A stretch of 42,417 bases of DNA from an uncultured bacterium (lineage in GTDB: Bacteria > Zixibacteria > MSB-5A5 > CAIYYT01). Of the stretch, positions 14,730-42,417 are shown piece by piece. Both the position numbers and the translations under genes were made by a program. The notes under the pieces are model-generated. The model was not told the DNA's origin. It did not search any database and saw only the letters and a list, made by a program, of their open reading frames with translations. The stretch spans positions 1 to 42,417 of the forward strand of contig CAIYYT010000048.1 in the NCBI GenBank assembly GCA_903930455.1, written 5' to 3'. Position 1 is the stretch's first letter. Every line of letters starts with the position of its first letter.

Positions 14730-14774
14730 AGATCGTTCGTAGAAATTTTTCCTCCTCCCAAGAATTGAGTTCGC

Positions 14775-16564: not shown

Positions 16565-16567
16565 TAA

Positions 16568-17046: not shown

Positions 17047-17057
17047 AGGAGTGGAAT

Positions 17058-19774: not shown

Positions 19775-20593
19775 ATGAAAAGAATACTTGGGGCACTTCT
19801 CATAGTTCTTGTTGTAGCGGTCGCCCTTATCGCTCAGGGTCCGAAGGTCTATACGGCATATCAAAACACTAAGATTTTGCATTTAACCGACACTATGGGC
19901 GGAATTGATACCGGAAGAATTGGTGGCTTTGATAGCACTACGGCAGCCAGAACCTTAGTAAAGGTCAAGGCGGGTGTGGGTGATACCACAAAACGAAGTT
20001 GGATCAAGTTCAAACCGAATTTGTCGATGGATGTGGAATCAACCGGCAAGGGGCCATTCACTTTCACTATCGACAGTCTATCCGGTCAATTTCCTGATTC
20101 TGGTTTCCGATTCACCTACGTGAAAGCGTCTTATACGGGTGTAAGGCAATCCGGCTTTGTGAATTGGAAATATACGATCAAGAGCGATTCCACCAGCTTC
20201 GTCTACAATGCACGCACTAACCCATCTGCGGGTGGAGACGAAACGATAGTTTGGGATACCGGCGATGTTTTCCAGATACCCCCGGCCAACTCCTATTTCG
20301 TTCAGTTTGCTTGTTACAAGATGAGCGAGAAGGACAGCACGGGGGCAAGAATGATTCTCCAAAATCGAATGTATATGGATTCGCGGCCTGGCGACAACTG
20401 GGCGAACGTCTGTAGTTCCGGTGTTTTCACCGACACTACCGCCCCCCTCGCCGATACCGCGAAGATTACACGAGACAACCTTGGGGAAGCGTTCAGGGTC
20501 ATCGCTTGGGATGTTGATTCACAGAGTGCGAAAGTGTACTACGGGAAGATCGACTGGTTCGGTCTGACGTGCCACATCGTCACTCGATACTAA
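19775..20593 (+). CDS. Exported protein of unknown function, signal peptide 1
   Basis: A 272-residue protein with a clear Sec signal: Met-Lys-Arg, then a hydrophobic core (LGALLIVLVVAVALIA) ending near residue 21. The remainder is beta-rich with many Asp-Thr and Asp-Ser pairs, like extracellular beta-sandwich proteins. AGGAGG precedes the start by 6 bases. It lies between portal and scaffold genes, where non-exported virion proteins are the rule. It could be a capsid or tail decoration made outside the cytoplasm, or a secreted host-modifying protein. No family is recognised. Confidence 0.7.
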   Translation: MKRILGALLIVLVVAVALIAQGPKVYTAYQNTKILHLTDTMGGIDTGRIGGFDSTTAARTLVKVKAGVGDTTKRSWIKFKPNLSMDVESTGKGPFTFTIDSLSGQFPDSGFRFTYVKASYTGVRQSGFVNWKYTIKSDSTSFVYNARTNPSAGGDETIVWDTGDVFQIPPANSYFVQFACYKMSEKDSTGARMILQNRMYMDSRPGDNWANVCSSGVFTDTTAPLADTAKITRDNLGEAFRVIAWDVDSQSAKVYYGKIDWFGLTCHIVTRY

Positions 20594-20611
20594 TTTGAAA
20601 GGAAACGAAAG

Positions 20612-21217
20612 ATGAAAACTAAACTTCTAATCCCTCTGTTAATGTTGGCTGTTCTCTTGCCGATTGCGGTGGGGTTTGCGGCCAACGCCACGATTGTGTC
20701 GGGAACCAAAACGGAACTGATTCCGTGGAAGATAACGTATCCATCCGACAACGTAGTGATCGGATACGGTTTGTGCAATCATGCGGTGCAAGTCGATTCG
20801 GCGTCTACGGCAGCTCGAAGTAATGCTACTGTCGAAATCATTCCCGCAACCGATGTCTCGGCTTACGACAAGGTTTGGTTGTGGGTTTCGCCTACCCAAC
20901 TTGGGGATAGTTGTTACACTCTTTCCGACACTGATACGTCTCGTGTTATCTTCGAGACGAGTTATGACGCCGTAAATTGGTTCAAGAACATCACCGGAAC
21001 TAATGGCGATACGGTCATAACGGCGGTGACAAAGAGGCCTACCTTCTATACGACCAACGATTCTTGTGCCGGCAATAACAAGAAGGGCGTATGGATTCGC
21101 GCTAGAGTATACTACAACCTTTCTGTTGGTGCGGCTATCCCCGTGGTCGGCACTCCCGCAAATGGGCTTTACAACCAGAAATACGCCTATGGCCTGAAAG
21201 CATGGCGAAGCAAATAA
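20612..21217 (+). CDS. Exported protein of unknown function, signal peptide 2
   Basis: A 201-residue protein with a strong Sec signal (Met-Lys-Thr-Lys, core LLIPLLMLAVLLPIAV, cleavage near GFA-A). The mature part is beta-rich with aromatic pairs (WLWVSP, VNWFKNITG) and resembles the neighbouring 19775 product in style, not in obvious sequence. AAAGGAAAC precedes the start. The two may be co-exported partners. Confidence 0.7.
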   Translation: MKTKLLIPLLMLAVLLPIAVGFAANATIVSGTKTELIPWKITYPSDNVVIGYGLCNHAVQVDSASTAARSNATVEIIPATDVSAYDKVWLWVSPTQLGDSCYTLSDTDTSRVIFETSYDAVNWFKNITGTNGDTVITAVTKRPTFYTTNDSCAGNNKKGVWIRARVYYNLSVGAAIPVVGTPANGLYNQKYAYGLKAWRSK

Positions 21218-21218
21218 C

Positions 21219-21521
21219 ATGAATGAGAATCTGAAAAGACAGGGTGAAGCCGAGCGTGCTATGCTCGAAGCCGACAAGAAACTTGCCGAAGCAGCGGATC
21301 ACTTACGCGGAAATCCCGACTTAGGTCTGATTCTCATTTCCTTCCTGAACAGGGCGGAAGAAATACGCACCTTCCTCTGTCAGCCATACGATCCATCGCT
21401 GCCAGTGGACTTTCAACACCTGCAACGCGCCGAATGGCGTGGCCGGGTGAGTGAGATCGAAGATTTACTTGACACCTTCAAAGAACAGGACACGGATACA
21501 GATGCTCAACACGATGAATAG
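21219..21521 (+). CDS. Small coiled-coil protein
   Basis: A 100-residue charged helical protein (residues 1-30 and 75-95 likely coiled coils) starting one base after the preceding stop. It ends in Asp/Thr-rich residues. It is placed just before the scaffold gene and could be an assembly chaperone; this is position-based. Confidence 0.55.
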   Translation: MNENLKRQGEAERAMLEADKKLAEAADHLRGNPDLGLILISFLNRAEEIRTFLCQPYDPSLPVDFQHLQRAEWRGRVSEIEDLLDTFKEQDTDTDAQHDE

Positions 21522-21551
21522 CGTCTACTGTCCCAACACTATTGAGGTAAT

Positions 21552-22763
21552 ATGTTTTTGAAAGAATTAACGCGGTTTTTCAGTCCAGAACCAGCCGGTG
21601 GCGGTGGCAACATTTCAGTTACCGTTACTCCGGGTGGCGAAACCAAGGGTGCCGACACACCCGATGATTCTGTCGATACTCCAGATTTTGGTCTCTCTGA
21701 ACTGGAATCCGGCGCTCCTAACGAAGAACTAAAGGAATTTACCAAAGTTGTTCGTGAGGAGCAGGAGAAAGACCCCACTCTAAAGCCTTTCGAGGTTGAC
21801 GAGCGGGATGTCTTGGAAGAGATTGAAGCAGGCACAAAGCCAGAAGCCAAGGAAGAACCTAAAGAACAGAAGTCTCCCGACACGCAATCGGAACTTTCCG
21901 ATGCCGAACTGGAGCAACTGAAGGTTCTCGGAAAACGGGCAATGGCTAAACACGGCAAGCTGAACCAGTACATACCAAACGGCGACATCTTTGAGGCTTT
22001 GACTCGATACAACGGTGGACTTGAAATGTTTGAACGCGCCCGTGCACTAGCCGGACGCGCAGGCATGAGCATACCTCAGCTTTTCGATTACGTCGAACAA
22101 GGCGTGACCGGAGCGCAGGAAATTCAGGCAGGACGCAAACCTGCTAATCCAGAACCGAAACCGAAAGAACTTGACAATGAGACTCTCGAGAAGCTCTCCA
22201 ACATTCTCGGTCTAACACCCGAAGAAGGCAAGAGCACGATTGATCTTCTGCGTCAGTCTCTCGGAATCTCATCGGTTGACCAGACGTTAACCGATCGTCT
22301 CGCTCGTCTTGAGCATGGACAGAATCTAACACAGGAACAGCAGAATCAAGCGTTTTGGAGCAATGAGTTTTCTACCTTTGCCAAGTCAAATCCGAAAGTC
22401 GAAAGTCTCAAGGACAAACTCGATTTCATTCTTGCTCAAGAGGAAGCATCCTCTCCGGGATTCTGTCAGAGAAAGCTCGACGAAAGTGTGGCTACGGGTG
22501 TGCGTCCCTACCAGTGGGCGTTACGTTACTACATGGCGAGTTATGCGACCCCCGAAGAGTTCATGCAATCTCTTGGTGCAGTGAAGCCGAAATCTGAAGC
22601 CCCCGTACCAGCTCAACGTGTCGTAGGCGCCGGCCATCTCGGTCCAAGTTCTTCTGACAATGATAACTTTGACCCTGAGAAGGCGACTCTATCTGAAGCA
22701 TCTGCTTTTCTGTCTAAGGCGTTGGGAAACAAAGTCCCAATACCGGGAGAGCGGTTCAGGTAG
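21552..22763 (+). CDS. Probable scaffolding protein
   Basis: A 403-residue acidic protein with a long disordered Glu/Pro/Lys-rich N-terminal region (to about 120), helical middle and a Ser/Pro-rich C-terminus. It is placed directly upstream of the major capsid gene. Composition and location are typical of scaffolds that guide procapsid assembly and then leave. No protease motif is seen. The Ser-rich minus-strand frame across it is a shadow. Confidence 0.7.
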   Translation: MFLKELTRFFSPEPAGGGGNISVTVTPGGETKGADTPDDSVDTPDFGLSELESGAPNEELKEFTKVVREEQEKDPTLKPFEVDERDVLEEIEAGTKPEAKEEPKEQKSPDTQSELSDAELEQLKVLGKRAMAKHGKLNQYIPNGDIFEALTRYNGGLEMFERARALAGRAGMSIPQLFDYVEQGVTGAQEIQAGRKPANPEPKPKELDNETLEKLSNILGLTPEEGKSTIDLLRQSLGISSVDQTLTDRLARLEHGQNLTQEQQNQAFWSNEFSTFAKSNPKVESLKDKLDFILAQEEASSPGFCQRKLDESVATGVRPYQWALRYYMASYATPEEFMQSLGAVKPKSEAPVPAQRVVGAGHLGPSSSDNDNFDPEKATLSEASAFLSKALGNKVPIPGERFR

Positions 22764-22790
22764 TAGTTCCTCCTTCTCGTTGAGGAAACT

Positions 22791-23969
22791 ATGGCACAGA
22801 TTACCAACACCGTCCTTGCCAACGCAATTCAGACGTTTTGGGACAAGGGCTTACTGAAGGTATACATCAAAACCCTAAAGGCTGGTGATTTCGCTTCTCA
22901 GCGTAAGATCACTAACGCCAACACCGTTCGTTTCGCCAGGTTTGAGAAGTTTGCACGTCCGGCCAAGATGACCGAGGGCGGTCTTCCTACTCCGCAGACT
23001 TTCTCTGTCAACTACCTTGAAGTCTCTCTCGACGAATATGCTCTGGCAGCCCAGATGACGGATTGGTCGATGCACGACAATGCCTTTGGCGACTTACTGG
23101 CGAAGACCACCGAAAGAGCCGGTATCGCTATGGCTGAGGGTGCGGACTACGTGACCATGAAAAAGATGTGTACTCACGCTTACCGCGTCCCTTCCGGTCT
23201 CGACCTATCCAGACGCGCTAAGGGTACGGCATCGTCCGGTTCGACTTCGACTCTTGTTTGCTCGACACTGGCAGGAGCCTTCGCTGACGACGATTTCAAC
23301 GGATCGACCTTGCTTGTGTATGAAGGCACGAACAAGGGCATTGCCAGAGAGGTCTACGACTTCACCGCATCAACCTGCACGTTTACGTTCACCGGGGACC
23401 TGTTCCCACAGGCGAACGATTCGACCTCGAAATTCATTTGCTGGAAGCGCAACGGTACTCTTGTTGCTCCCGATACCAATACGTTCCTCGTCATGGCGGC
23501 CATGGCTAAGTCGCATGGCCTGAAGAAGCCGGCAGGGGAAGTCGGTGTCCCGATATTGATTCCGTCTTCTTTCCTTCCCGAATTTTTCAAGGACACGATC
23601 TTCCAGACTCAACAGTTGAACATCCCGAACAATCACTATCAGGATGCTGATGTGAAGAAGTGGGGTTCGTTCCTGTTGATTCAGCACGATCAGCCATACG
23701 TGGAAGACGCCAGCGCTGCCGGTGCCGAAGCCGAGACTACGGGCAGCCGGTGTCTGTGCCCGGTCATTGGTGTCGATTCCTATTCGATTGCACGTCAGTC
23801 GAAGGGAAGTGGCAAGTTCGGTTTGGAGAACTTTGTCGTTGACCAGCCGGATCACACAAACATGATCATGGCCTACACCACTCTCGGATCGAAGCACCGC
23901 TTCGGTGTGGAAGTGATTAACGCCGAGAACCTGTTGGCGCTCGAAGTGCCTTACGTCAATTACGATTAA
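22791..23969 (+). CDS. Major capsid protein, N4-gp56 type
   Basis: A 392-residue HK97-fold-type capsid protein. Features of the N4-gp56 family are visible: the early FARFEKFARPAKMTEG segment, VSLDEYALAAQMTDWS, a helix after TTERAGIAMAEGADYVTMKKM, and the C-terminal GSKHRFGVEVINAENLLALEVPY. An inserted Thr/Ser-rich beta region lies at about 140-210. N4-type capsid proteins occur in many podoviruses besides Schitoviridae. GAGGAAAC precedes the start. A terminator follows, consistent with high-level independent expression. Confidence 0.85.
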   Translation: MAQITNTVLANAIQTFWDKGLLKVYIKTLKAGDFASQRKITNANTVRFARFEKFARPAKMTEGGLPTPQTFSVNYLEVSLDEYALAAQMTDWSMHDNAFGDLLAKTTERAGIAMAEGADYVTMKKMCTHAYRVPSGLDLSRRAKGTASSGSTSTLVCSTLAGAFADDDFNGSTLLVYEGTNKGIAREVYDFTASTCTFTFTGDLFPQANDSTSKFICWKRNGTLVAPDTNTFLVMAAMAKSHGLKKPAGEVGVPILIPSSFLPEFFKDTIFQTQQLNIPNNHYQDADVKKWGSFLLIQHDQPYVEDASAAGAEAETTGSRCLCPVIGVDSYSIARQSKGSGKFGLENFVVDQPDHTNMIMAYTTLGSKHRFGVEVINAENLLALEVPYVNYD

Positions 23970-23974
23970 GGGAT

Positions 23975-23998
23975 GGCGGGGTAACTCCCGCCTTCTCT
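23975..23998 (+). terminator. Hairpin after major capsid gene
   Basis: GGCGGG (23975-23980) pairs with CCCGCC (23987-23992) across 6 bases and is followed by TTCTCTT. The T run is imperfect, so it is probably a partial terminator that raises capsid levels over downstream genes. Confidence 0.55.
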
Positions 23999-24011
23999 TG
24001 GAAAGGATGAT

Positions 24012-24236: not shown

Positions 24237-24712
24237 TGCCGATCTATGACCTTCAATGTGTAAGTTGCGAAACGCGCGAGACTGATGTTCTCGTTGGCTC
24301 TGGCGGTTTGAGTGCGTGTCCCAACTGCGGTGGGGCACGGACGATATGCTTTAAGAACATGACCGCTTCTGTGATTGTGAAGAACAGCATGACTCCACAA
24401 CAGCAGGAAGTCGAGCAGATGAAGGCCATACTGAAGCAAGCGGAGTCAAAGGGGCAGTTGTCGCCCGAAGTTCTCTCAATGCGGCCAGAGGATTTCGTGA
24501 TACCTGACACGCCCCTTACTCCACAGCAACGTGAATGGACGCAGGGGGAAGTGCAGCAACGCGCTTACGACTCCAAAGCTGAAGATCTCTCTCTCAAGAA
24601 AGAGAGCGAAGAGATTAGCAGGGCTTTCAATTCGTTAGGTAAGGAAAGTCAGAACGAAGTGGTGCAGGGGATGAATGGACTTCTCTACGAACCCGTTGAG
24701 GTGACAAAATGA
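24236..24712 (+). CDS. FmdB-type zinc-ribbon protein
   Basis: A 158-residue protein starting MPIYDLQCVSC, with Cys8, Cys11, Cys28 and Cys31 (SACPNCGG) as in FmdB-family putative regulatory proteins. The rest is a Gln/Glu-rich helix. The single-strand ribbon is at the N-terminus, and the tail is longer than free-standing FmdB domains of about 70-100 residues. It overlaps the next gene by 4 bases (ATGA). The function in phages is not known. Confidence 0.7.
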   Translation: MPIYDLQCVSCETRETDVLVGSGGLSACPNCGGARTICFKNMTASVIVKNSMTPQQQEVEQMKAILKQAESKGQLSPEVLSMRPEDFVIPDTPLTPQQREWTQGEVQQRAYDSKAEDLSLKKESEEISRAFNSLGKESQNEVVQGMNGLLYEPVEVTK

Positions 24713-25365
24713 GCATGACTGAAGACGAAGCCATAGCCCTCCTCTGCATGGCAAAGGGACAAGCTACCGAGGAAGTCAAGAAGGCTGCCAAGACTGCTCT
24801 ACTCCAATCTATGCACATGATCCTCGATAGCTCCGGCGTCGGTTGGGACTTCGAGAAGGTGAAGCTGACACTGACTACCATATTAGGCAAGACCACATAC
24901 TATTTGAATCGCCTTAACGACATGGTTGATATTGCCGCTGCCAGCATACTCAATCCGAATGACGATCTGGTCAGTGTCGTACACAATGCTTGGTACGGGA
25001 CCCAAAGACTACAGAAGATGGACGTTGACGACTTCCTGACTGAACACAATGGCAGTACTTCCACGGGGACACCTTCGGTAATCACGGCCTACGGCAATGC
25101 CATCGAAATCTATCCGATTCCTGACGGGGCTTACTCGTTGAGCTTTCTTGTCTCGAAGCATCCCAAGGGATTTGAGGCGATGTTATCGCGCAAGCAGTAC
25201 GCGCCAGTGTTCCTTGCCAGACAGTTGATGTTTGAACCGAACACGCCAGACTATCTCAAGTCGTCACAGTTGGCAGACAAAGCTATGGAGGCGTTCAAGC
25301 AGGGGGATGGTGTACTCGACATGAATGATGCCGTCGAAGGAGATTTCAGCTATGAAATGGAGTAG
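24709..25365 (+). CDS. Head-tail adaptor-like protein (cytoplasmic type)
   Basis: A 218-residue protein resembling podovirus adaptors (P22 gp4 / T7 gp11 type): N-terminal helices, then a beta segment (YLNRLNDMVDIAAASILN and IEIYPIPDGAYSLSFLVSKH), then C-terminal helices. Adaptors form a ring below the portal. It has no signal peptide. The next gene encodes a similar-looking protein that does have one, and the two overlap by 14 bases. The call is based on pattern and position. Confidence 0.6.
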   Translation: MSMTEDEAIALLCMAKGQATEEVKKAAKTALLQSMHMILDSSGVGWDFEKVKLTLTTILGKTTYYLNRLNDMVDIAAASILNPNDDLVSVVHNAWYGTQRLQKMDVDDFLTEHNGSTSTGTPSVITAYGNAIEIYPIPDGAYSLSFLVSKHPKGFEAMLSRKQYAPVFLARQLMFEPNTPDYLKSSQLADKAMEAFKQGDGVLDMNDAVEGDFSYEME

Positions 25366-26014
25366 TCGCGTCATACTGATAGTCCTGTTGCTCTCTGCGT
25401 GCGCCAACGGACTTAATCGTTCAGATATCAGAGTCAGGACAAGAACATATTGGGGGCAACTGTTTGCCGCTAACAGCAATCTCCCTGACAGTATTCTGGA
25501 CAATGCCACGAACACCGCCCAGGCGCTCGTTGCTCATATCGGACAGGCGAGAGAGAGGGATACGTCGATCACGCTGACATCAACGGCGACATCCTACTCT
25601 CTCCCCTCCGATTTTGATGGAGTTACCGGAGTCTACGGGACTACGCGAACGATAGCTCCCGCTGTTCTACGGTTCATGCCATACCGTGAGTTTACGATGG
25701 GGTACGCTGATAAGTCTCCAAGTGAGTATTCGATTCATAACGCACAGCTCTATGTTTGGCCGAAACCGAAAGACAACAAGGACTCTGTGCGGGTGCTGTA
25801 CTTCTCTACGGTTACGAAGATGGATTACGATACGGCTACCTGCCGGCTACCTGCTGTCTGGCATGAACTCATTCCCTTTGTTGCGGTCGAAGTGCTGAAG
25901 ATCCCCGATGTCGGGACTGTCGCGGCGATGCAAACGATCAACGATTTGATAATGGCTTGGAAACGGAACTATGTTGAGAAGTTATCTGAAAAGACTGTTC
26001 CTCAAGGTCAGTAA
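25352..26014 (+). CDS. Adaptor-like protein with lipoprotein signal
   Basis: A 220-residue protein. Residues 1-15 are MKWSS, a hydrophobic core (VILIVLLL) and LSAC, a canonical lipobox with Cys15 as the modified residue. The mature part has the adaptor-like pattern: N-terminal helix with DSILDNATNTAQALVAHI, then YSLPSDFDGVTGVYG, Y-x-I-x-N-x-x-L-Y-V-W-P-K-P-K and LPAVWHELIPFVAVEVLKI. GAAGGAG precedes the start at 25352; an ATG at 25325 lies inside the upstream gene without a site. A tail-ring subunit targeted to the membrane as a lipoprotein is very unusual. Confidence 0.65.
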   Translation: MKWSSRVILIVLLLSACANGLNRSDIRVRTRTYWGQLFAANSNLPDSILDNATNTAQALVAHIGQARERDTSITLTSTATSYSLPSDFDGVTGVYGTTRTIAPAVLRFMPYREFTMGYADKSPSEYSIHNAQLYVWPKPKDNKDSVRVLYFSTVTKMDYDTATCRLPAVWHELIPFVAVEVLKIPDVGTVAAMQTINDLIMAWKRNYVEKLSEKTVPQGQ

Positions 26015-28877
26015 TCTCGACTGGGGCGGAGTCCTTTTACTCCTCGCCATTGTCTTGGTTCTCTCTCTCATTATCGCTCTGGCAACTGCTGAAGGTGCTG
26101 AATTACAGTGGCAACAGCTTGGTGACTACTCTGGCGGGATTAACACCAAGTCTCCAAAGGGACAGTTGGCCGCTAACCAGTATCTCAGTCTTCAGAACTT
26201 CCTCATTGTCAATGGTGGATTAGAGTGCCGCAAGGGATTCTACAAGCTCCATTCCTTGTCAACGAGACCGATTACTTTTGTGGGCGTGTTTCACAAGAAG
26301 TCCGGGACAAATCACCTAATCATCGGCGACGGTCAACGGATATGGTCATCACTGGGGTTGATCGATACTCCGAAAGAATTGACGATAGGAACATACGATG
26401 TCAGCACCGTTGATGTCGATAGTGCCGTAAATCAGATTCATGGTAATTCCGTCAGCACGCAGAGGTGGTTGGCATGGCTTGGTTCTTGTGAGGGTTGTCC
26501 GATTACGGTTGGTGATACAGTCCGAACGATCAGTAAGATCGTTCTCGACACTTTGATTTATACGACAGTGGCATACAACAAAACTCAGAGTGCGGCCAGT
26601 TATTCTCTTGGAGCACTTGGGATCACTGTTAATCGTGGCCTGACGATCTCTGATAGATATTGGCTTTACACAACCAATGGTCGTTACTCTATGGATTCTC
26701 CAGACAGTGCCACGATCTCTCTCGGTGCATTGAATGGGACGCGGTATCAGATGTCAACCCCATACGTTGCACGAACGTGCTATAACAATAAGGCGAGTTT
26801 GAGGTTCACGTCTTCCGGTTTGAACACGGGACTGGCAGGATATTTCTTGCGACTCACAAGCGATCAAAGATCGAATGTGGCTCGCAATCCGATCCCTGCC
26901 GGTAGTTCATTCTACATGTCCTATCCCATCATCAACAGCAATGCGACACAGATCACTACGCAGGGAGCGGCCTTCATCCCTGATTCGACAGCAACCGGAG
27001 CCGAATATTTTACGGCGGTTTCTCTGACTCCATCCGCTGATAGTTTACGTCGGGTTGTTGTTGATAGTGTTGTGCGCGTTGTGCAGGATTCGGCGCAGTG
27101 GGAATGCACTGGAGACAGGGCGGTTTATTTGAAAGTGTATTGCGACTCCTGCCACTGGAAGTCGGACACGGCACGGTTCATTACCGGAGACTGTTTCGTT
27201 AGTCCCGAAACGGAAATTGGTTATCTGGGAAGTGTAAATCCCGGACTTGGTACGGGGCCTGCGATGACCAATAGAATTATCGGAGCAAAGTACAAAACGC
27301 CGGTGCAGGAACAGATTCGCGCTACGTCCATGACGGCGGCATTGAAATTTGGTGGTGCGGGTGCTTTCACGATCAAGGGTGCTGTCTATAACGCATCAAC
27401 AAGGGCACTGGTTGACACCACTCGGACTTTAGTGGACACGGCAGTTGGTACTTATACTCCAGCGACAATTACTCTGACCTTTGCAAGCGAAGTGCATTTG
27501 GATAGTAGCACCGATTACATCTTGTGTCTCTGGACAAGTCTGGCTTCGGCTACTTTTCGATATACTGCATCTTCCGGTGATTACGCCTACAAGCAATTCG
27601 GTCGCTCGCTGACATACACGGGCAGTTTTCCGGCAACTTTAGCCCCAACCGATTCAAGCTATTCGATCAATTTGGCGGTTTATGCCATGTTGAACTATTT
27701 TGAGAATGTCGATCCGAAGAGCAAGTCAGGACTGAACAACGCAGTTGCCTCAACTTGCTATCCAGTTGTCGGTGGTTACGTCACTTCCGATAGTGCCATT
27801 TTGGTTGCTTCTGATGTAACGGGATTCCCCGATCACGGACAGCGAAAGTTATCGTTTTTCCGCATGATTCATGGTGCGAGTGGATCGGCAATGATACTCG
27901 ATTCTACAAATTATGTGACTGTTGCTACTTTCGAGGGCAGGGTGTTCCACGTCTTAGCGAGCGCCAAACAGACAATCTATCGGTCTGATTTGTTCGACCC
28001 CGATTCGATTCTGGCGGCAACGATCATTCTGACCGATCCGTCCGGTGAGGACATAACCGCCATGCTCGGACAGTCGGAATACTTGAAGGTCTACACGGCC
28101 AACAATCGCTACGTGGTGACTTCGACTGACGGGTACACGTACACGATCAACAAGATCAGCTCTGGTGTCGGCTGTGTGGCGCCAAAGACTCTTTGCGAAA
28201 AGGACGGCGTTCACTACTACCTGCACTATACCGGCGTTTACCGCGACGACGGTACTCCCGACTTGGGACAGCCAATCAGTGCTCCGATCAACGACTGGTT
28301 CACTGACTCTATCGGGACTTCTCAGTACGATCAGGCAGTGGCTACGATCTATCAGGGAAGATACTGGATCAGCATAGTAACAAAGTCAAATCAGAAAAAG
28401 ACCTTCGTTTACGATATGACCGCGAACGCTTGGACGGATATGAGCGTGTTGTCGTTTGCTTCGGCAATCTCTTATGGCGGCGACATCGACAGTCTGCGAT
28501 TCATCTTTGGCTCTTCCGACACTGGCAACGTCTACGCATACGGGTCGCACTCGGACAGGGGCGATTCTATCTCTGCCGTCGTACAGAGTGGCTATCTCAA
28601 TCAGGACGATCCTACGGTTTTGAAGTCGTACAGGGAAGTGTTCGTCTCTGGTGAAAAGACATCCGGAGTCAAGTTCACCCTGTCGCTTTATCTCCAGCCG
28701 ACTGCTGTTTGGACATCAACTGCGATAGTCGGAACGTCAGAGGTCGGCAACTACCGAGTTAATCCATTGCAGACAACGGGCAAGTCTGTCTCTGTGAAGC
28801 TGACGATACCGAACGCCTATGGCTACAAACATTCATCTATGAGGTTGGGATATGTGGGTCAAGGCACTGCTAATTAG
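25971..28877 (+). CDS. Tail nozzle-like protein with N-terminal membrane signal
   Basis: A 968-residue protein. A basic start (RSYLKRLFLK) is followed by a hydrophobic segment (residues 20-40, ending ALATA-EGA), which reads as an uncleaved anchor or a long signal. Then comes LQWQQLGDYSGGINTKSP...LSLQNFLIVNGGLECRKGFY, the opening typical of podovirus tail tubular/nozzle proteins (T7 gp12-like). The long beta-rich body fits a beta-propeller nozzle. It overlaps the previous gene by 44 bases. Confidence 0.65.
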   Translation: MLRSYLKRLFLKVSNLDWGGVLLLLAIVLVLSLIIALATAEGAELQWQQLGDYSGGINTKSPKGQLAANQYLSLQNFLIVNGGLECRKGFYKLHSLSTRPITFVGVFHKKSGTNHLIIGDGQRIWSSLGLIDTPKELTIGTYDVSTVDVDSAVNQIHGNSVSTQRWLAWLGSCEGCPITVGDTVRTISKIVLDTLIYTTVAYNKTQSAASYSLGALGITVNRGLTISDRYWLYTTNGRYSMDSPDSATISLGALNGTRYQMSTPYVARTCYNNKASLRFTSSGLNTGLAGYFLRLTSDQRSNVARNPIPAGSSFYMSYPIINSNATQITTQGAAFIPDSTATGAEYFTAVSLTPSADSLRRVVVDSVVRVVQDSAQWECTGDRAVYLKVYCDSCHWKSDTARFITGDCFVSPETEIGYLGSVNPGLGTGPAMTNRIIGAKYKTPVQEQIRATSMTAALKFGGAGAFTIKGAVYNASTRALVDTTRTLVDTAVGTYTPATITLTFASEVHLDSSTDYILCLWTSLASATFRYTASSGDYAYKQFGRSLTYTGSFPATLAPTDSSYSINLAVYAMLNYFENVDPKSKSGLNNAVASTCYPVVGGYVTSDSAILVASDVTGFPDHGQRKLSFFRMIHGASGSAMILDSTNYVTVATFEGRVFHVLASAKQTIYRSDLFDPDSILAATIILTDPSGEDITAMLGQSEYLKVYTANNRYVVTSTDGYTYTINKISSGVGCVAPKTLCEKDGVHYYLHYTGVYRDDGTPDLGQPISAPINDWFTDSIGTSQYDQAVATIYQGRYWISIVTKSNQKKTFVYDMTANAWTDMSVLSFASAISYGGDIDSLRFIFGSSDTGNVYAYGSHSDRGDSISAVVQSGYLNQDDPTVLKSYREVFVSGEKTSGVKFTLSLYLQPTAVWTSTAIVGTSEVGNYRVNPLQTTGKSVSVKLTIPNAYGYKHSSMRLGYVGQGTAN

Positions 28878-29250
28878 TCTGTTGCTGTCTACTGTAGCTC
28901 TTGCTCAGGGGTCTGTCCCTATTGCCAGAGATACCAGTCGGGCATCCAAGAATCTGTTGAAAGAGTCAAAGATGATTCAGAGACAGATTGATGCTCTCAG
29001 ACAGTATATCGACTCTAACTTCGTTCAGTGGGGTATTGACACGATTGCTTCGCTTGATTCGGCTACGGTTACGATCTCGGTGGAATATGAGTCAGGGACG
29101 AGTTACGCTGCCGAGGCGATAGCGGAGATCAATCTTGCCAATGGCCTGTACTGCTCGACTCACACGGATTCGACATTCATTGTACACAATCAGAATAACA
29201 CGACAGTGATTTTTCGCTGGCTGGCCGCTGGGATAAGAAAGAAGGAGTAG
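28852..29250 (+). CDS. Small exported virion-region protein
   Basis: A 132-residue protein with a Sec signal (MWVKALLISLLLSTVALAQG, cleavage near ALA-Q), a helical segment (LLKESKMIQRQIDALRQYI) and a beta-rich C-terminus. It overlaps the nozzle gene by 26 bases. A tail-tip or periplasmic role is possible; no family is recognised. Confidence 0.65.
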   Translation: MWVKALLISLLLSTVALAQGSVPIARDTSRASKNLLKESKMIQRQIDALRQYIDSNFVQWGIDTIASLDSATVTISVEYESGTSYAAEAIAEINLANGLYCSTHTDSTFIVHNQNNTTVIFRWLAAGIRKKE

Positions 29251-29255
29251 GGAAC

Positions 29256-31256: not shown

Positions 31257-31266
31257 AGGTTAAAGG

Positions 31267-32508: not shown

Positions 32509-32511
32509 CGT

Positions 32512-35500: not shown

Positions 35501-36330
35501 TCGCGTCGAATTGGCTGGAGAAAGTACCCGTGGTTAAAGCGATTGTACGTGCTTCTGACCGTCACATGACGACCTTACTGAACTCTCTGCGCTCTGCCGC
35601 CTTTGATGACTTCCTTGCCAAGTACCCCAATGCCACGGACGCACAACTTGCTTCGTGGGCTGACTACATTAACAAGAATACCGGCAAGGGTAATTTGGGG
35701 AGTATGGCTCAGGCAGCCAACGAACTCTCACTTGCTTTTTTCGCTCCGAAATTCGCAGTGAGTCGTATACAAACTCCGTTGGCACTATTCAAGAACCTGA
35801 AAGACCCGATTCTTCGCAAAGAGATTGCGTTGAGTTATGCCCGTGTAATCGGTGTTGGGTTGACGGCCATTGGTATTGCCAAGCTTGCTGGAGCCAAAAC
35901 GAGTAGCGATCCTGACAGTGCGGACTTTGGTAAGATCAGATACGGTGACACCCGCGTTGACATTTGGGGAGGATTCCAACAGCCGGCGCGTTTGCTTAGT
36001 CGCATAGCGATCGGTGTGTACGACAGGGTAAGCGGCAAAGAGAAGGTCGAAAATCCCCTTGAACTGATTACTCAATTTGCAACCTACAAGATGGGACCGG
36101 GCACGTCGTTACCGCTTGAACTGTATCGCGGCAAGACGATCATGGGTGAGCCTGTGACTTTGACTGAGACCGCTGCTGCTGCTGTTACTCCGATGGTATT
36201 GGCTGACTTCTACGACGCATGGAAAGATCAAGAAGCGGCTTCGGCAATAGTGTCTGGAGCTATGAGCGCTACGGGTATTGGTGTTAGCACCTATACTGAC
36301 AAGAAGAACAGAAAGAAGAATAGGAAATAG
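32512..36330 (+). CDS. Large polyvalent internal virion protein
   Basis: A 1272-residue multidomain protein, the largest in the genome. After an N-terminal helix and a membrane-active-looking region (about 100-175), it has a Pro/Glu-rich linker. Then comes a segment like large polyvalent protein domains (LTDHAIIGAVKLARGVGEFGQWSAEM), long coiled-coil helices, and a C-terminal domain with FFAPKFAVSRIQT and hydrophobic helices as in LPD38-type regions. Such proteins travel into the host with the DNA. No lytic-transglycosylase or protease motif is seen. It is made without a signal sequence. Confidence 0.7.
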   Translation: MMTVAEYQSKVQELDALEAELTQLEKDRLGGVMPTDPTQQRLGTATAQAPLEQPPVTASTASKPQQLIGDYAKQLQAGPPTAKTLAEEITPVNYTGNFAHDAGALVTNLGKDALGLIAALPEMAKTAVSGTGEEKMKMAQDLIAFSPVSAFHLLNAARLIPPAMAMSLYDATTDKTTADIGKTDQQRYEELVGQSQQYVAQHPIGTLMGVAMGKGGIEKMRPAEAPAIDSPVNPELLKPEAKAPVEPAPVVESPKPMEPPKRVYKHPYDMTRAELSDAVFDQGKLSANEVAKLSPDELIYEFTAGKMGKQRVVPTVEELPQVAPAEAKPVPPPVETPKPEMVTEPPTKPVVEPVPEKIVVGAKDEGLNAIESKQREIDAAKTPESSTPKTVSQPEPVTSAPAELSFLDKAEAAARERLAQRQGKISLGALGDPKTALDLTDHAIIGAVKLARGVGEFGQWSAEMLKEFGDEIKPHLQKIWRQSRQFHEKIKAGEDPATFVVEQPKVENTGTAPVEVGLSKEHTAELRQAYGLDQIDQTKARSFLDAAKTAKDKGLDKDALSIANDVMATKRPITMEEHAGLHAKALDLANEYDKAIETSAKLVDEGNPEGAAIERNRANAIAGDIDRLTLATDLGTGEAARTVSIARMMQNREDFSISASVQKAKSLKGEPLTPKETSRIEELALKHKEYERQIEDLRAKNDQLMTEHEKEVAAAVAKRMVRRERITAKTTEYKSKILKERDSIKKQIADLGYRVNDVTGVTAEGSYLIGKLAVNYIKEGAVNLADVVQKVIADIPALTDRDVYQALIAKDPKRQGIARNEVTQRIRQLRKEASLMAGDKLAEVKSELARLEEQRKTGDFEVKPKTEATKLSPELERKQIELLMVRRELRTAINQVAPTGVRGFIDKSVNTLRTAKATADISATFRQGLVENVNQGLKHPVRTLRKNAQAIKAMFSEFTAEQIDNEIRTSPTYYQMQKAKLQLSDMDGKLSKQEEYFASNWLEKVPVVKAIVRASDRHMTTLLNSLRSAAFDDFLAKYPNATDAQLASWADYINKNTGKGNLGSMAQAANELSLAFFAPKFAVSRIQTPLALFKNLKDPILRKEIALSYARVIGVGLTAIGIAKLAGAKTSSDPDSADFGKIRYGDTRVDIWGGFQQPARLLSRIAIGVYDRVSGKEKVENPLELITQFATYKMGPGTSLPLELYRGKTIMGEPVTLTETAAAAVTPMVLADFYDAWKDQEAASAIVSGAMSATGIGVSTYTDKKNRKKNRK

Positions 36331-36341
36331 AGGACGTTTAC

Positions 36342-36614
36342 ATGACTGACAACAAAGGAAACGAAATCAAGTTTTGGGCGATTATCCTACCCTGTGTCGT
36401 GGCAGCTCTCTCGCTTGGGTTAATGATCGGGCAGAACATACCGCGCACGCCCTATATCACTGAGGGAGCGCAAACACAAATCGCAAACATGCAGCGAGAG
36501 ATTACTACGGATAATAATCGATATGAGACCATTTTGAATAGCCTATCAAACCTCAACGGGCAAATTGTTGAGTTGAAAACGAAATTCGACGCCCACATAG
36601 GGTTGAAGCCATGA
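36342..36614 (+). CDS. Inner-membrane coiled-coil protein, possible spanin
   Basis: A 90-residue protein with an N-terminal membrane segment (about 11-30) and a C-terminal coiled coil (QIANMQREITTDNNRYETILNSL onward in short heptads). This is the layout of inner-membrane spanin subunits, which span the periplasm and fuse membranes at lysis. Spanins often sit near lysins, but here the lysin is across the join about 7 kb away. No outer lipoprotein partner is obvious next to it. It overlaps the next start by ATGA. Confidence 0.5.
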   Translation: MTDNKGNEIKFWAIILPCVVAALSLGLMIGQNIPRTPYITEGAQTQIANMQREITTDNNRYETILNSLSNLNGQIVELKTKFDAHIGLKP

Positions 36615-36712: not shown

Positions 36713-36722
36713 AGGAGGATTT

Positions 36723-36866
36723 ATGATAATCAATGACGCCATTACGTTAAGCAAAGTCGAACTCAGTCTGATTCTATTCATCGCCGCTTGTTGGGGACTC
36801 GATGTGTTTCGGAAGTGGCGGAACAAGGTGATGCAGACTCCGATCGAGGAACCCCATGACGACTAA
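36723..36866 (+). CDS. 47-residue membrane peptide
   Basis: A 47-residue protein with an excellent GAAGGAGG site. One hydrophobic segment (LSLILFIAACWGL) is followed by a basic patch and an acidic end, a small inner-membrane topology. It overlaps the next gene by 11 bases. Perhaps a lysis or export accessory; no family is recognised. Confidence 0.55.
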   Translation: MIINDAITLSKVELSLILFIAACWGLDVFRKWRNKVMQTPIEEPHDD

Positions 36867-37845
36867 AATGGCGAAGTCATTCTGTGGGATTACCGCCCTA
36901 ATCGGATTTATTCTCTACCTCTTTATGTGCTTCGGCGGTTGCACTCCCGCGCATGGGGATACTCTCGAAGTGGCGTTTGTCCCCGGAGTTACCAATGAGG
37001 AATACCAATATGGCATATATGCACCGGAACTGGGCATTATATTAGGTGATGTAACCCATAATACAGTGGAAAGATATTTGAATGTAACAGTGCCAAAATA
37101 TTCGACGATTGATTCGGCGGTGATATTCTTCTCGTATGCTGTTGGCAATGCCAATGCCTTAGACTTGCGCATAACCGCAGAGTATGTTGATAGTGCCAAT
37201 ATTCTACCAACTACTTACGCAAATTGGCTTTTGATGGCTGCAAATATGACGACCGCTCATATTGACTGGTCAAATATCCCAGAATGGACTTCCTATACTC
37301 AGTATGTCTATCAAAGTCCGGATTTTCATTCTGTGGTACAAGAGGTAGTGGATCGTAGTGGTTGGAAACCGGGGAATGCAATTAATGTCATCTTTTCTCC
37401 GATAAATGGGACCACAGGATATCGAACTCCAGACGGGGCACACATCAAACTACGCCTCGTATATCATTCTGGGGCTATTCCTCCTACAACCTTGATGTCG
37501 TGTGCGATAGATAACATTATTGGCAGATCCGACACCGCCTATTTCGTCTGGCAGACCGCAAATACGTCAGAGACGAATGATTATATCAGAGTGCGAATTT
37601 CCACATCCGGATATACCGATAGCGCATCCTATACGATGCAAATCGCTTATGTAAACAACAAGAAAGACTCAACTAAGATCGGGACATTAGGGACGGGAAC
37701 ATTCACAACCTATGCGTCTTCATGGGTGTGGGATAACATCAATTACTATTCGTCTCGATGCCAATCTACACGCACTTTTGTCTATGTAATTCCGCCAGTA
37801 ACTACATTCAATGGGCCGGTCATAGTAGGAGTTAGAAAAAAATGA
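36856..37845 (+). CDS. Exported DNRLRE-like beta-sandwich protein
   Basis: A 329-residue protein. The N-terminus has a hydrophobic core (ITALIGFILYLFMCFGGC) ending in GGC, a near-lipobox, so a lipoprotein or Sec signal is likely. Residues about 45-210 have the DNRLRE-type pattern: paired strands, W-x-x-Y-x-Q-Y-V-Y-x-S-P-D, then IQEVVDR-like VVQEVVDRSGWKPGNAINVIF and a final LRLVYH strand. Such folds occur in secreted polysaccharide-binding proteins. The C-terminal third is another beta domain. GAGGA precedes the start. It opens a four-gene chain of overlapping genes. Confidence 0.6.
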   Translation: MTTKMAKSFCGITALIGFILYLFMCFGGCTPAHGDTLEVAFVPGVTNEEYQYGIYAPELGIILGDVTHNTVERYLNVTVPKYSTIDSAVIFFSYAVGNANALDLRITAEYVDSANILPTTYANWLLMAANMTTAHIDWSNIPEWTSYTQYVYQSPDFHSVVQEVVDRSGWKPGNAINVIFSPINGTTGYRTPDGAHIKLRLVYHSGAIPPTTLMSCAIDNIIGRSDTAYFVWQTANTSETNDYIRVRISTSGYTDSASYTMQIAYVNNKKDSTKIGTLGTGTFTTYASSWVWDNINYYSSRCQSTRTFVYVIPPVTTFNGPVIVGVRKK

Positions 37846-38255
37846 AGAAGTACCTATCCATTATTGGGATTGTTTCCCTTTGCCTCTTAGCAATTATATG
37901 TGGATGCAAGCAAACACAGGCCGGGGCTACTACGGCAACCCTACACTGGACGGCTGTTGGTGACGATGGTTTAGTCGGTACGGCGTCACAATATGACATC
38001 CGATATTCAACCACTCCATTGACGGAAGCTAATTGGGAAGCTGCTGTTCAATGTACCGGCGAACCGGTTCCAAAGATTGCAGGTAGTGCCGAGATATTCG
38101 TCGTTACTGGTTTGACTCCGAGCACAACTTATTGGTTCGGGATGAAGGTTGCCGACGAAGTACCCAACTGGAGTGATCTATCGAATGTCGTCAGTATCAC
38201 GACTATCGACGGCGTCAGGCCATCTCCGGTATCCACGTTACAGGTGACACAGTGA
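37842..38255 (+). CDS. Fibronectin type III-like exported protein
   Basis: A 137-residue protein with a signal sequence (KKYLSIIGIVSLCLLAIICGC) whose GC end resembles a lipobox. Residues about 30-125 fit one FN3 domain: ATLHWTAVGDD, YDIRYSTTPL, VTGLTPSTTYWFGMKVADE and SNVVSITT. FN3 domains are common on exposed phage and bacterial surface proteins. ATGA overlap upstream, GTGA downstream. Confidence 0.7.
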   Translation: MKKYLSIIGIVSLCLLAIICGCKQTQAGATTATLHWTAVGDDGLVGTASQYDIRYSTTPLTEANWEAAVQCTGEPVPKIAGSAEIFVVTGLTPSTTYWFGMKVADEVPNWSDLSNVVSITTIDGVRPSPVSTLQVTQ

Positions 38256-40345
38256 AGTATCTTCCTATTATTTTTATTGCCATACTACTCTGGGCTCCGG
38301 CGCAGGCTGCGAAACACTATGTCAAGACTGACGGCAACGATGCACTCGATGGCCATTCTCTCGCCAACGCTTGGAAAACAATTTATAGGGCAGATACGAC
38401 GGTAGTTGCTAATGATACGGTTTTGATTAGCGATGGGACGTACTACCAGGGGGGGCAAACCCGTACATTTTACGGTATTACTTATTACTGTGTTCTTAGA
38501 CCCACCCATGGTGGAACTGCTGGACATCCGATAGTCTACAAGGGGAACGGTTGCCGACCCATTCTACGTGGTAAATACGGGGGTTCGGACAATCAGGATG
38601 GCACGGGTTCCATAACTGCCTACATGGACTATCCTTATATCACCCTTGATTCTCTTGATTTTCGGATTAGTAATTGTGGCGGAGTTGTAATAGACGCTGG
38701 ACATATCACGGTTAAATATTGCCGAATTGATTCAGTTTACATGATAAATCCAAGTGGGTTTGGTAATTGCGGAGGAACCGTAACTGGGAATGGATGGGCT
38801 GGGGGAGAAAGTGTCGGTGACTGTGCCGATATCTCAAATTGTGAAATATACCGAACTGGGCCTGTAAAAGCAGTCGGGTCAAGTGAGAATAACTATGATG
38901 GTGTAGTTTTCTATGATGGGGACACTGTTTGGGTTCACGACAATTACATCGAGGGAGTTTTGGGAGTTGGAATCAAACTAAAAAAAATCTATGGCTCCAG
39001 TCACGTGATCACGATTGAGAACAATACCGTTACCAGTCCGGGAATAGTTGGAATTGATTTGGGCCCGGCAGCCGAAGGCAATATTGATAGTATCGTGGTA
39101 AGGAACAACATCCTTTACAATATTGCCACTTTGGGCGGAACCGGAGCAGATGACCAAACACAATTCGGAGCGATTGTCCAAAATGATTTATCCAATTTGG
39201 GATATAACGACACTCGTGTTTGGGTCTATAATAATACCATCGACATGTATAGGACGGAATTTGGTTATCAAACTGGTAGATCGGTCGCTGGTAACGACGT
39301 TCATTTCTTCAATAATATCATCTGGGATCACCAACCGACCACGTCAATAAAGCCGATTGAGTCGGGTCTGCCCGTGGCTTCCTTTTACACTGACTACAAC
39401 TTGTTTTATGGCCGTACCTCGTCGGATGATCTGTTCTGGTATCCAAACGCTGATAACAATTATCACGATCACACCTCAGGAACTTATTACACCCTTGCTG
39501 AGTGGCAGGCCAACAATATAGCTGAAGTTACCGGAAAAGATGCTCACTCAACCATTGCCAATCCGCTGTTCGTCGATGGCGCAAATCACGACTATCGTTT
39601 GCAGGCTGGTTCTCCGGCTCTGACTGGGGGTAAGGGTGGAGCATATCCGACTTATCGGGGGGCATATGCGTTAGGCGAAGATTCATTGCCGCCGGTTGAT
39701 ACGACATTAACTGTCGCTCCCAATCCATTAGTCATAACACGAACGATCGGTGACGACAACGACAGCGCGATATTCGTTGTCAATACCGTGCCCGACGCTC
39801 CCGTTACCTATTCGGTATCACTGACTTCAAGCTGGATCGGCACTCCGGTTCTTACTGACGCGACAACACCCAATGGCAGTTTCTATATTCCCCTGTCGAT
39901 TAACGATCTCGACACACTGGGGCAATATCGGGACTCGCTGATCGTGCATTGTGCGGGAACAACGATACCGGATGCGATTGTACCGATCACCATGAATCTA
40001 ATCGACTCGTTTTTGGTGATAGACTCTACCAGTTTCACAATAGCTGGGGAAGTTGGTGGTGCAATGCAAGAGGTGATGTCACGCGCAGATTTTGAATCAA
40101 ACAAACACTTGGCAATATCTGTCGCCAATGATTCTTCTTGGCTAATATCGACATGCCTCGATTTCTGTCTGACCCCAACTTACATTATCGCAGACGTTGA
40201 CTACGGGGCGCGACCAGCTGGGGTTTACAAAGATACAATTACAGTAACTTGTGCTGGAGCGACTAACTCGCCTGTCAAGATACCTGTCACGCTGACTATT
40301 GGAGCCGCATCCACCGGCACACGCCTAATGCTGAGGAAACCATGA
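38252..40345 (+). CDS. Exported right-handed beta-helix protein with Ig/BACON-like end
   Basis: A 697-residue protein. The Sec signal (MKYLPIIFIAILLWAPAQA-A) is near ideal. Then comes a beta-helix start (HYVKTDGNDALDGHSLANAW) and pectate-lyase-type coils with repeated N-N-T and D-N-x-I runs to about 460. Two Ig/BACON-like repeats follow (TLTVAPNPLVITRTIGDD and DSTSFTIAGEVGG), ending in VPVTLTIG-type strands. Beta-helix proteins of phages are spikes or depolymerases; no catalytic pair is clear. The start is GTG in a GTGA overlap. Confidence 0.75.
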   Translation: MKYLPIIFIAILLWAPAQAAKHYVKTDGNDALDGHSLANAWKTIYRADTTVVANDTVLISDGTYYQGGQTRTFYGITYYCVLRPTHGGTAGHPIVYKGNGCRPILRGKYGGSDNQDGTGSITAYMDYPYITLDSLDFRISNCGGVVIDAGHITVKYCRIDSVYMINPSGFGNCGGTVTGNGWAGGESVGDCADISNCEIYRTGPVKAVGSSENNYDGVVFYDGDTVWVHDNYIEGVLGVGIKLKKIYGSSHVITIENNTVTSPGIVGIDLGPAAEGNIDSIVVRNNILYNIATLGGTGADDQTQFGAIVQNDLSNLGYNDTRVWVYNNTIDMYRTEFGYQTGRSVAGNDVHFFNNIIWDHQPTTSIKPIESGLPVASFYTDYNLFYGRTSSDDLFWYPNADNNYHDHTSGTYYTLAEWQANNIAEVTGKDAHSTIANPLFVDGANHDYRLQAGSPALTGGKGGAYPTYRGAYALGEDSLPPVDTTLTVAPNPLVITRTIGDDNDSAIFVVNTVPDAPVTYSVSLTSSWIGTPVLTDATTPNGSFYIPLSINDLDTLGQYRDSLIVHCAGTTIPDAIVPITMNLIDSFLVIDSTSFTIAGEVGGAMQEVMSRADFESNKHLAISVANDSSWLISTCLDFCLTPTYIIADVDYGARPAGVYKDTITVTCAGATNSPVKIPVTLTIGAASTGTRLMLRKP

Positions 40346-41190
40346 AACGACTGATATTGATTGCGCTACTGCTGGTCGCGGCGACGGCGTTGGGAGCAAC
40401 CAAGACATTTACCCGGCAATTTGTTTTGCCGCAAAGTGGGGGATCGACACAACATGGTGGAACAATCAAGCAGGACGCGGCGACAACTGCCTTCCCATAT
40501 ACAGAAGAAATGATATCTCCCGACAACTATGCGGTTCGGACATCGCTGAAATCGACAGCATCCCACAAAAGACTTGCTATCTTAGTCCTTGATTCAAACA
40601 ATATCTGGAACAACACGCCAAACGACTCTACTAATGGTCATATCCCGAGCAATTGGCAACTTGACCCGAGCTACGGGGCGATCACGGTAACGCTATACAT
40701 TGCAAACGGCAAAGATGCTATGAATTTGTACGTTCATCCAGCCTTGCGTAAGTTTGACGCATCGAGTGGCGGCACTTGGACGGCGGCTTCAACCGGGATA
40801 AACTGGACAGATGCCGGTGCGTGCGATCAAGGAGCTTCGGGGTGTTCCGAGGATGTGTCGGGGGCAGGAATATACACCAATACGAACAGTGGTACGGGTA
40901 AGGATCGTTACGACACCGATCTGGCAAATGTCTACTGCGAGGGGATTAACAATCCGTGGATTGTGACGTTTACGATAGACGATACGACTTGGATTGGCAG
41001 AACTCGGACTACAAGTGCAAATTCGTTTGCGCTGATCGTTGAGATGACAAGTGCGAGCGCTTCCGATTCTACTGATCTTTATATTAACACAAGACTGATT
41101 GATGAAATTACGTACAGGTCTTACGTCACGATCAACGCGGTGCGACCAGTGGTGGCTGGATCAAGTAGTGAGCGGAGACGCAGAAACTGA
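40342..41190 (+). CDS. Exported DNRLRE-like protein
   Basis: A 282-residue protein with a Sec signal (MKRLILIALLLVAATALG-A). The middle reads ITVTLYIANGKDAMNLYVHPALRKFD, then GTWTAASTGINWTDAGAC and a final strand set, as in DNRLRE-type carbohydrate-binding modules. Four Cys residues in the loop could form disulfides outside the cytoplasm. The C-terminus ends in SSSERRRRN, a basic tail. It overlaps the beta-helix gene by 4 bases (ATGA). Confidence 0.65.
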   Translation: MKRLILIALLLVAATALGATKTFTRQFVLPQSGGSTQHGGTIKQDAATTAFPYTEEMISPDNYAVRTSLKSTASHKRLAILVLDSNNIWNNTPNDSTNGHIPSNWQLDPSYGAITVTLYIANGKDAMNLYVHPALRKFDASSGGTWTAASTGINWTDAGACDQGASGCSEDVSGAGIYTNTNSGTGKDRYDTDLANVYCEGINNPWIVTFTIDDTTWIGRTRTTSANSFALIVEMTSASASDSTDLYINTRLIDEITYRSYVTINAVRPVVAGSSSERRRRN

Positions 41191-41253
41191 TGGGGAATGT
41201 ACCGCCCGCACTAATTGGCAGAGAAGCGTTTTGTATATTAGAAGGATATATCC

Positions 41254-42417
41254 ATGAAAAGATTAGCGATTTTGATACTGGTGGTGTTGGCGGTGTGGTG
41301 GACTGTCACCTATGGAGCGTCGTCTCTGGGGATAGTGACTCCCGCATCGCAGTTCAACTTGCCTTGCAGCGGAATTGATACACTGAATGGCCTTGAACGC
41401 AAGCCGGATTCAGTGCAGATTATCATCAAGTTTGGACGCACTGCCAATCTGACTTCTTACTTCCGTACTACGGGTTCGACAGTAGTGGGCGCGGACTGGA
41501 TTGATTCGACTCTTGACGGTGGTTGTCCAAGTTGGTACTTCCGCGACACGGTTGGGGAGTTCGACGCCGACTCTGGATCGGGACTGTACATGTTCAATCT
41601 CAGGTCGTTTTACCAGACAAAGCCGTTTACGCGAGAGTACACGTTCCAGCTACTTGCAAGCAAATCATTCGCTGCTGCTGTAGAGGCAATCCCTGATTCG
41701 TTACGGGATGTTGTGGGAGATACGTTCAATGTGGTGTCGGGTGTGCTTCCTGTCAACCTCACGCAGATCGACGGAGCAGCAACCAACGGGTATAATGCGA
41801 CGCTGAAGTTGAAGATGCTGGACATTAGCAATAATGCTGGTAACGCTGTTTCGTTAGTGAGTTCCGGTGGTAATGGTCACGGGCTGTACGCACTTGGGGA
41901 TGGCACAGGAGGTGGCATATACGGCAAGAGTGGAACTGGTGCTAATGCTCATGGAATTGTTGGTTATTCTCAAGGGTCAAGCGGTTTCGGTATGTACCTA
42001 TATGGAGTTACCGGAGGGATGAACGGACAAATGGGTTGGGGTGGTGCTGGTGTATACCCGCGAATAACAGGGACGGGCATAAGCAGCAACGGATTTGCTT
42101 ATGATGTTGCTGCTGCTGTTTGGGATGCGTTAAGGTCTGATCATGTTACTGATTCCACTTATGGAACGGGGTACAGGGACTTACAAACAAGGGCGGCAGC
42201 GATCAAAGCCAAGACGGACAAGCTGACGTTTAACGCTCAGGATTCACTAATTGCCGATTACTCGAATATGCCCGCTGGCGGCGGCGGTGCGACGAGTCTC
42301 TGGCCGCTTGTGCAGGGTAAGCTGGTAGTCGATTCGGGGTCAGCGGCAAACAGTGACGAGATATTCGTGACTGATACGACCGACATCAGAGTGGCTTGTA
42401 GAAAAGATACCGCTGGA
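41254..42417 (+). CDS. Fiber-like exported protein, N-terminal part (continues at base 2)
   Basis: First 388 codons as shown here (341 before the repeat is counted once) of a 749-residue protein that ends at 1225 in the circular genome. It has a Sec-type signal (MKRLAILILVVLAVWW, cleavage near YGA-S). A beta domain follows, then a Gly-rich repeat zone (GLYALGDGTGGGIYGKSG, GIVGYSQGSSG) like tail fiber shafts, and AAAVWDALRSDHV...IKAKTDKLTF, a linker common in phage fibers. AGAAGGATA precedes the start. No stop is met before the window end. Confidence 0.75.
   Translation, partial: MKRLAILILVVLAVWWTVTYGASSLGIVTPASQFNLPCSGIDTLNGLERKPDSVQIIIKFGRTANLTSYFRTTGSTVVGADWIDSTLDGGCPSWYFRDTVGEFDADSGSGLYMFNLRSFYQTKPFTREYTFQLLASKSFAAAVEAIPDSLRDVVGDTFNVVSGVLPVNLTQIDGAATNGYNATLKLKMLDISNNAGNAVSLVSSGGNGHGLYALGDGTGGGIYGKSGTGANAHGIVGYSQGSSGFGMYLYGVTGGMNGQMGWGGAGVYPRITGTGISSNGFAYDVAAAVWDALRSDHVTDSTYGTGYRDLQTRAAAIKAKTDKLTFNAQDSLIADYSNMPAGGGGATSLWPLVQGKLVVDSGSAANSDEIFVTDTTDIRVACRKDTAG
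42279..42417. repeat. Terminal direct repeat, right copy
   Basis: Exact copy of bases 1-139. It lies inside the fiber-like gene that starts at 41254 and ends at 1225 in the circular genome. Confidence 0.95.

Follow-up and report, generated by a model that had tools for sequence, protein, structure and literature searches.

Predicted export signals on the distal tail proteins of a lineage of podoviruses in Zixibacteria genomes

Genome organization

The window, by which we mean the whole stretch of DNA analysed here (42,417 bases), is the entire contig C48 of the 3.77-Mb MAG G000, whose phylum is Zixibacteria. It is without flanking host DNA, carries a direct terminal repeat of 139 bp and is a near-complete podovirus-like phage genome, encoding a T4-type TerL, an SU10-family portal, a capsid protein, two SU10-adaptor-type genes and a nozzle. 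The window has no recognisable gene for a sheath or a tape measure, and the phage is known here from sequence alone. All genes described below lie on the + strand.

The terminase large subunit (15065..16564) was identified as T4-like TerL by tblastn and matches PHROG 5989, and the portal (17040..19082) matches the Pfam model SU10_portal (PF23899, 2e-10, above the cut-off). After the portal come a 272-aa protein with the predicted signal peptide MKRILGALLIVLVVAVALIAQG (19775..20593) and a 201-aa protein (20612..21217) for which our rule calls a signal peptide with cleavage near residue 24-26. The scaffold-like protein (21552..22763) was assigned from its position and acidic composition, and the major capsid protein (22791..23969) from matches to PHROG 267/1357 with E about 1e-4. 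Adaptor 1 (24709..25365), presumed to be the head-side connector ring, gives a weak match to SU10_adaptor (4e-4), and adaptor 2 (25352..26014), of the gp11/gp4 type and with the lipoprotein-type signal LLLSAC, matches the same model (PF24175) at 7e-14. For adaptor 2, 25352 is a better start than 25325, where its longest frame begins. Its top Foldseek matches are the adaptors of SU10, KHP30 and T7; the AlphaFold model searched is of low confidence (pLDDT 49), so that this list was taken only as agreement with Pfam. The tail nozzle (25971..28877), also with a predicted signal, is T7 gp12/P22 gp10-like and matches phrog_3287 (2e-12) and phrog_511 (7e-9), the latter being matched in all three nozzles scanned; its AlphaFold model was discarded (pLDDT 29.5).

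The nozzle is followed by a 132-aa protein (28852..29250) with a signal peptide and a C-terminus that appears fibre/lectin-like by eye, and by three genes starting at 29256, 31267 and 32512 (together 29256..36330), whose position and composition suggest internal, ejection-type proteins; they contain no cysteines. A 90-aa protein (36342..36614) has one N-terminal TM helix, no signal peptide by the rule, and may be of the holin/spanin type. Further signal-bearing genes encode a lipoprotein-type protein that is CBM96-like through its counterpart in the related phage L080 (36856..37845), an fn3 lipoprotein (37842..38255), a right-handed beta-helix, tailspike-like protein (38252..40345; Pfam Beta_helix 8e-4, below the curated cut-off), a 282-aa protein called by the rule (40342..41190) and a 749-aa protein whose position suggests a fibre. 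For this last gene the start at 41254 given in the original prediction holds and its extent had to be corrected: since the window carries the terminal repeat, the gene runs across the contig end (41254-42278 plus 1-1225). Next to it lie a putative M15-type endolysin without a signal (1229..1600; motif seen by eye, no Pfam match) and a probable holin-like membrane protein (1874..2152; hydrophobicity judged by eye), and these two candidates make lysis likely.

Host of the phage

A MAG from Lake Erken that carries the label Gammaproteobacteria contains a 4,296-bp contig 99.98% identical to window positions 12628-16923, so the host is not fixed by binning alone. A comparison of 20 kb with five genomes from the family of the host gave no CRISPR spacer match. 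The Zixibacteria genome G117 encodes a 664-aa protein that has a signal and contains fn3 repeats, and the fn3 protein of the window shows 56-58% identity to these repeats, which supports Zixibacteria as host. This identity also suggests that at least one phage module was derived from secreted proteins of the host. The lipoprotein signal peptidase LspA is present in MAG G000.

Export signals in the virion block

Signals were called with a simple rule on the n-, h- and c-regions, using starts predicted from sequence; the rule recovers 14/14 textbook leaders, with M13 leaders among the positive controls. Ten signal-bearing starts had been claimed in the original prediction, and all ten N-termini are present (19775, 20612, 25352, 25971, 28852, 36856, 37842, 38252, 40342 and 41254), exactly these being called among the 23 genes of the virion block. 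They belong to the two genes that follow the portal and precede the scaffold gene, to adaptor 2, the nozzle, the post-nozzle protein, the CBM96-like, fn3 and beta-helix proteins, the 40342 product and the fibre-like protein. TerL, portal, scaffold, capsid and the three internal proteins, which had been described as lacking signals, indeed have none by the rule, and neither does adaptor 1, so that the boundary between signal-free head and signal-bearing tail proteins falls between adaptor 1 and adaptor 2. Each of the ten N-termini has a basic n-region, a hydrophobic core and either a small-residue cleavage site or a lipobox, the lipoboxes being three in number (LSAC at 25352, FGGC at 36856 and ICGC at 37842). 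Shine-Dalgarno-like stretches lie upstream of most of the ten starts. The signal-bearing set is only slightly richer in cysteine (1.22% vs 0.69%), with no clear pairing, and disulfide enrichment was set aside as a weak argument for periplasmic folding.

The 10/23 calls in the virion block compare with 0/23 among the other genes of the window and 1/81 among control virion genes from five podophages (T7, P22, SU10, crAss001 and a Manatee Spring podovirus; Fisher p = 4e-7), and the phage thus departs from a trait that is typical of its group though no formal requirement, namely tail proteins without export signals. Internal stretches of the same proteins gave a mean of 0.085 calls (maximum 2) and shuffled sequences a mean of 0.57 (maximum 4). 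In adaptor 2 the first in-frame start past the hydrophobic core is at residue 109, and in the nozzle at residue 66, beyond the conserved SGGINT motif; with no start that bypasses the core, the leader segment is obligatory in both proteins. The other eight signal genes have later starts nearer the core, and for them this argument is weaker. Since start codons are predictions, we considered an artefact of wrong starts, chance hydrophobic segments or host composition. Given the nulls near zero, the start-codon check, the lack of calls in the rest of the window and the conservation in five diverged phages described below, such an artefact is scarcely credible, and we rejected it, above all for adaptor 2 and the nozzle.

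The same N-termini might instead be hydrophobic parts of the virion, such as a tail-channel plug or a peptide that penetrates membranes at infection, as membrane-active proteins do occur in podoviruses. We regard this as very improbable: nothing in the analysis favours it directly, one n-h-c layout is shared by unrelated proteins (adaptor, nozzle, fn3 protein, beta-helix protein and fibre), three of them carry lipoboxes, and the ejection-type internal proteins are without such a segment.

Conservation of the signals in related phages

Close relatives of the phage were not found. Scans of IMG/VR with single proteins (TerL, nozzle and capsid of the window, and proteins of L008) gave no matches, and a scan of IMG/VR with a TerL alignment was likewise unsuccessful; relatives were recovered only through alignments and the Pfam SU10_adaptor model. 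Four distant members of the clade were obtained in this way. Three are fragments in Zixibacteria MAGs, namely L008 (G109:C81, JAGLON010000074.1, Candidatus Zixiibacteriota, from a class-mate genome of G000), L033 (G117:C42) and L035 (G079:C198), and the fourth, L080, is the IMG/VR contig 3300031539_000104. The window phage and L008 are 29% identical in TerL and 22% in the portal, and within the clade identity is 20-25% for the nozzle and 17-28% for adaptor 2. L009/L010 (G109:C64) and L060, taken up as possible relatives, proved to be unrelated siphophages and served as informal controls only.

A search for conserved signals in related genomes had been proposed with the original prediction, and it revealed that the signals are kept gene by gene in these four highly diverged phages and are absent from comparable podoviruses. 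Adaptor 2 carries a signal in 5/5 phages (window, L008, L033, L035 and L080) and the nozzle in 4/4 (window, L008, L033 and L080), the L035 fragment stopping before the nozzle; adaptor 1 is signal-free in all five. For adaptor 2 it is the export signal that is conserved across the clade and not lipidation. Other positions agree as well. L008 has a signal-bearing gene after the portal, as at 19775 in the window, and another in the post-nozzle position (14810), whose product is 21% identical to the 28852 protein. An fn3 protein with a signal recurs in L033 and L080, and L080 also has signal-bearing counterparts of the CBM96-like and fibre proteins, the leader of the former having an uncharged n-region and not passing the strict rule. 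The L033 stretch 845-1144 occupies the same position as the 36342 gene of the window.

Signals were found neither in 20 control adaptors (19 from phages outside the clade and adaptor 1 of L035) nor in 12 long downstream ORFs at the nozzle position of other podoviruses. The control adaptors came from SU10_adaptor scans of Zixibacteria and of 387 genomes, plus T7, P22 and L015, and the controls include six adaptors and three downstream ORFs from other Zixibacteria contigs. These downstream ORFs were taken as nozzles by position, and several of them show the GG-x-N start motif that is common to the nozzles of the clade and to others. In several phages outside the clade the motif itself opens the nozzle (MARNTKIAFFNDFTGGLN in L015, MSFEVYQNFDFSGGL in L049); in the nozzles of the clade a hydrophobic leader is fused just ahead of the conserved SGG(I/M)N start.

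The length of these leaders bears on how the proteins would be held after export. The window nozzle has a long leader of about 40 residues, possibly an uncleaved anchor, and that of L033 is long too, as would be expected if adaptor 2 and the nozzle formed an inner-membrane docking platform that captures heads, so that assembly is tethered to the membrane and does not take place free in the periplasm; export of the fibres is compatible with the same platform. The L008 and L080 nozzles and most of the other proteins, however, have short classical leaders with good cleavage sites, and we think a platform of uncleaved anchors rather unlikely.

Comparison with known phages

With SU10-like, T7-like and P22-like podoviruses the window phage shares the order TerL, portal, scaffold, capsid, adaptor, nozzle, internal proteins and fibres, the Pfam matches to SU10_portal and SU10_adaptor and, through the low-confidence model, the Foldseek adaptor matches; it differs from them in having a second adaptor gene. 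The virion genes tested from SU10, T7, P22 and crAss001 lack signals on adaptor, nozzle and fibres, whereas the window phage has them. The phage crAss001, whose host is Bacteroides, has at least two rings that separate the portal from the hub; the window phage resembles it in these multiple rings and differs in that none of the 22 crAss001 virion genes tested carries a signal peptide.

Virion proteins made with Sec signal peptides are known from filamentous phages (pIII and pVIII of M13). These phages lack an icosahedral head and are extruded as they assemble, with no lysis, whereas the window phage has a packaging head and an endolysin/holin-like set that points to lysis. An Inoviridae-like identity, with a Zot-type ATPase, a small genome and neither TerL nor portal, is ruled out by the TerL, portal and capsid genes. 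Exported lipoproteins encoded by phages also exist, such as the Rz1 spanin, Bor, Lom and Llp, which act in lysis or lysogeny; unlike adaptor 2 and the nozzle of the window phage, they are not core parts of the virion.

Another possibility is that the exported proteins work on the infected cell and not in the virion, forming a surface coat, serving as an adhesin or blocking superinfection. The fn3, CBM96-like and beta-helix proteins do resemble host surface proteins, and the identity of the fn3 domain to host secreted repeats agrees with such a role, which would still leave unexplained the signals on adaptor 2 and the nozzle, two core virion proteins whose genes stand at their usual position. 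A mere surface coat, one of the options put forward originally, fits poorly for the same reason, since in podoviruses with solved structures the head-tail adaptor and the tail nozzle are core virion parts; the other two options, tail assembly in the periplasm or at the membrane and exported fibres that join the particle later, both still fit the data. We consider a role outside the virion improbable.

Proposed assembly of the virion

An N-terminal Sec signal directs a protein across the inner membrane, and the conservation of such signals on adaptor 2, on the nozzle and on fibres indicates that the distal part of the tail is sent out of the cytoplasm. These predicted signals strongly support export of the module, and their presence on tail and fibre proteins and not on head proteins points to a tail built outside the cytoplasm. 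We infer the use of Sec by the leaders, the site of tail assembly and the route by which head and tail meet. In general form, our reading is that in this podovirus lineage from Zixibacteria genomes the distal tail module is exported and joins the heads late, which we hold to be probable.

More specifically, the virion would be built in two compartments, an arrangement to which we give an even chance. Heads, with portal, scaffold, capsid, TerL, adaptor 1 and internal proteins, would form in the cytoplasm. With their Sec signals, either cleavable or of the lipoprotein type, adaptor 2, the nozzle, the post-nozzle protein, the fn3 and CBM-like proteins, the beta-helix spike and the fibre would cross the inner membrane and then fold within the envelope, so that the tail would be periplasmic. 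DNA-filled heads ending in adaptor 1 would then join the exported tail, composed of adaptor 2, nozzle and fibres. This could happen at the membrane or upon holin opening, when holin lesions would let the heads reach the tails; alternatively, heads may dock on adaptor 2 held in the membrane. What counts against exported tails that join the heads late is that the two must meet across the inner membrane, by a mechanism that is only proposed; the modest cysteine difference, the unconserved lipidation of adaptor 2, the long leader of the window nozzle and a host assigned by binning also weigh against it.

Tailed phages are the most abundant viruses known, and the textbook view is that all of their assembly takes place in the cytoplasm and that they leave by lysis. 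The view that this pattern is not a described phage trait was borne out by literature searches, in which we found no tailed phage with exported tail proteins among open-licence papers. The plan of the virion is already known; the export signals are the new element, which would be highly surprising should protein work confirm them. If so, a conserved lineage that exports its nozzle, its second adaptor ring and its fibres would break the rule of cytoplasmic assembly, and one would have to ask how heads reach their tails across a membrane. It could also tie the evolution of phage tails to the secreted proteins of the host, as the fn3 module looks to have been taken from a Zixibacteria surface protein.

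In the window, the ORFs at 10045-12660 abut one another and run leftward, while the rest of the genome is read rightward, and the AT skew is flipped across this same segment, which is probably an early or regulatory operon. HNH/AP2-type homing-endonuclease-like genes were recognised by eye at 3108-3620 and 8314-8829, and the sequence at 6224-6793 encodes a C-terminal acidic tandem repeat (EAAIATLPEGEEDDD) that overlaps a basic ORF in a different frame.

Inspection by eye of two diverged phages of the clade, L033 and L080, showed a glycosyltransferase-like gene (L033 10370-11386; L080 5731-6660) placed between the capsid and adaptor 1 genes in both; the L080 copy has no Pfam match, and no gene of this kind was recognised in the window. 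In a podovirus-like module from another phylum (L056), a single signal-bearing gene (5577-6011) lies directly upstream of an adaptor.

A 664-aa signal-bearing Zixibacteria protein (contig G117:C131, L091 1730-3724) contains fn3 repeats that share 56-58% identity with the fn3 lipoprotein encoded by the phage at 37842, and this sequence similarity suggests that the fn3 module moved from host to phage. The contig L012 represents the same phage as the window and is 99.98% identical to window 12628-16923; it was binned with a MAG from Lake Erken that carries the label Gammaproteobacteria, which calls for caution in assigning hosts from bins.
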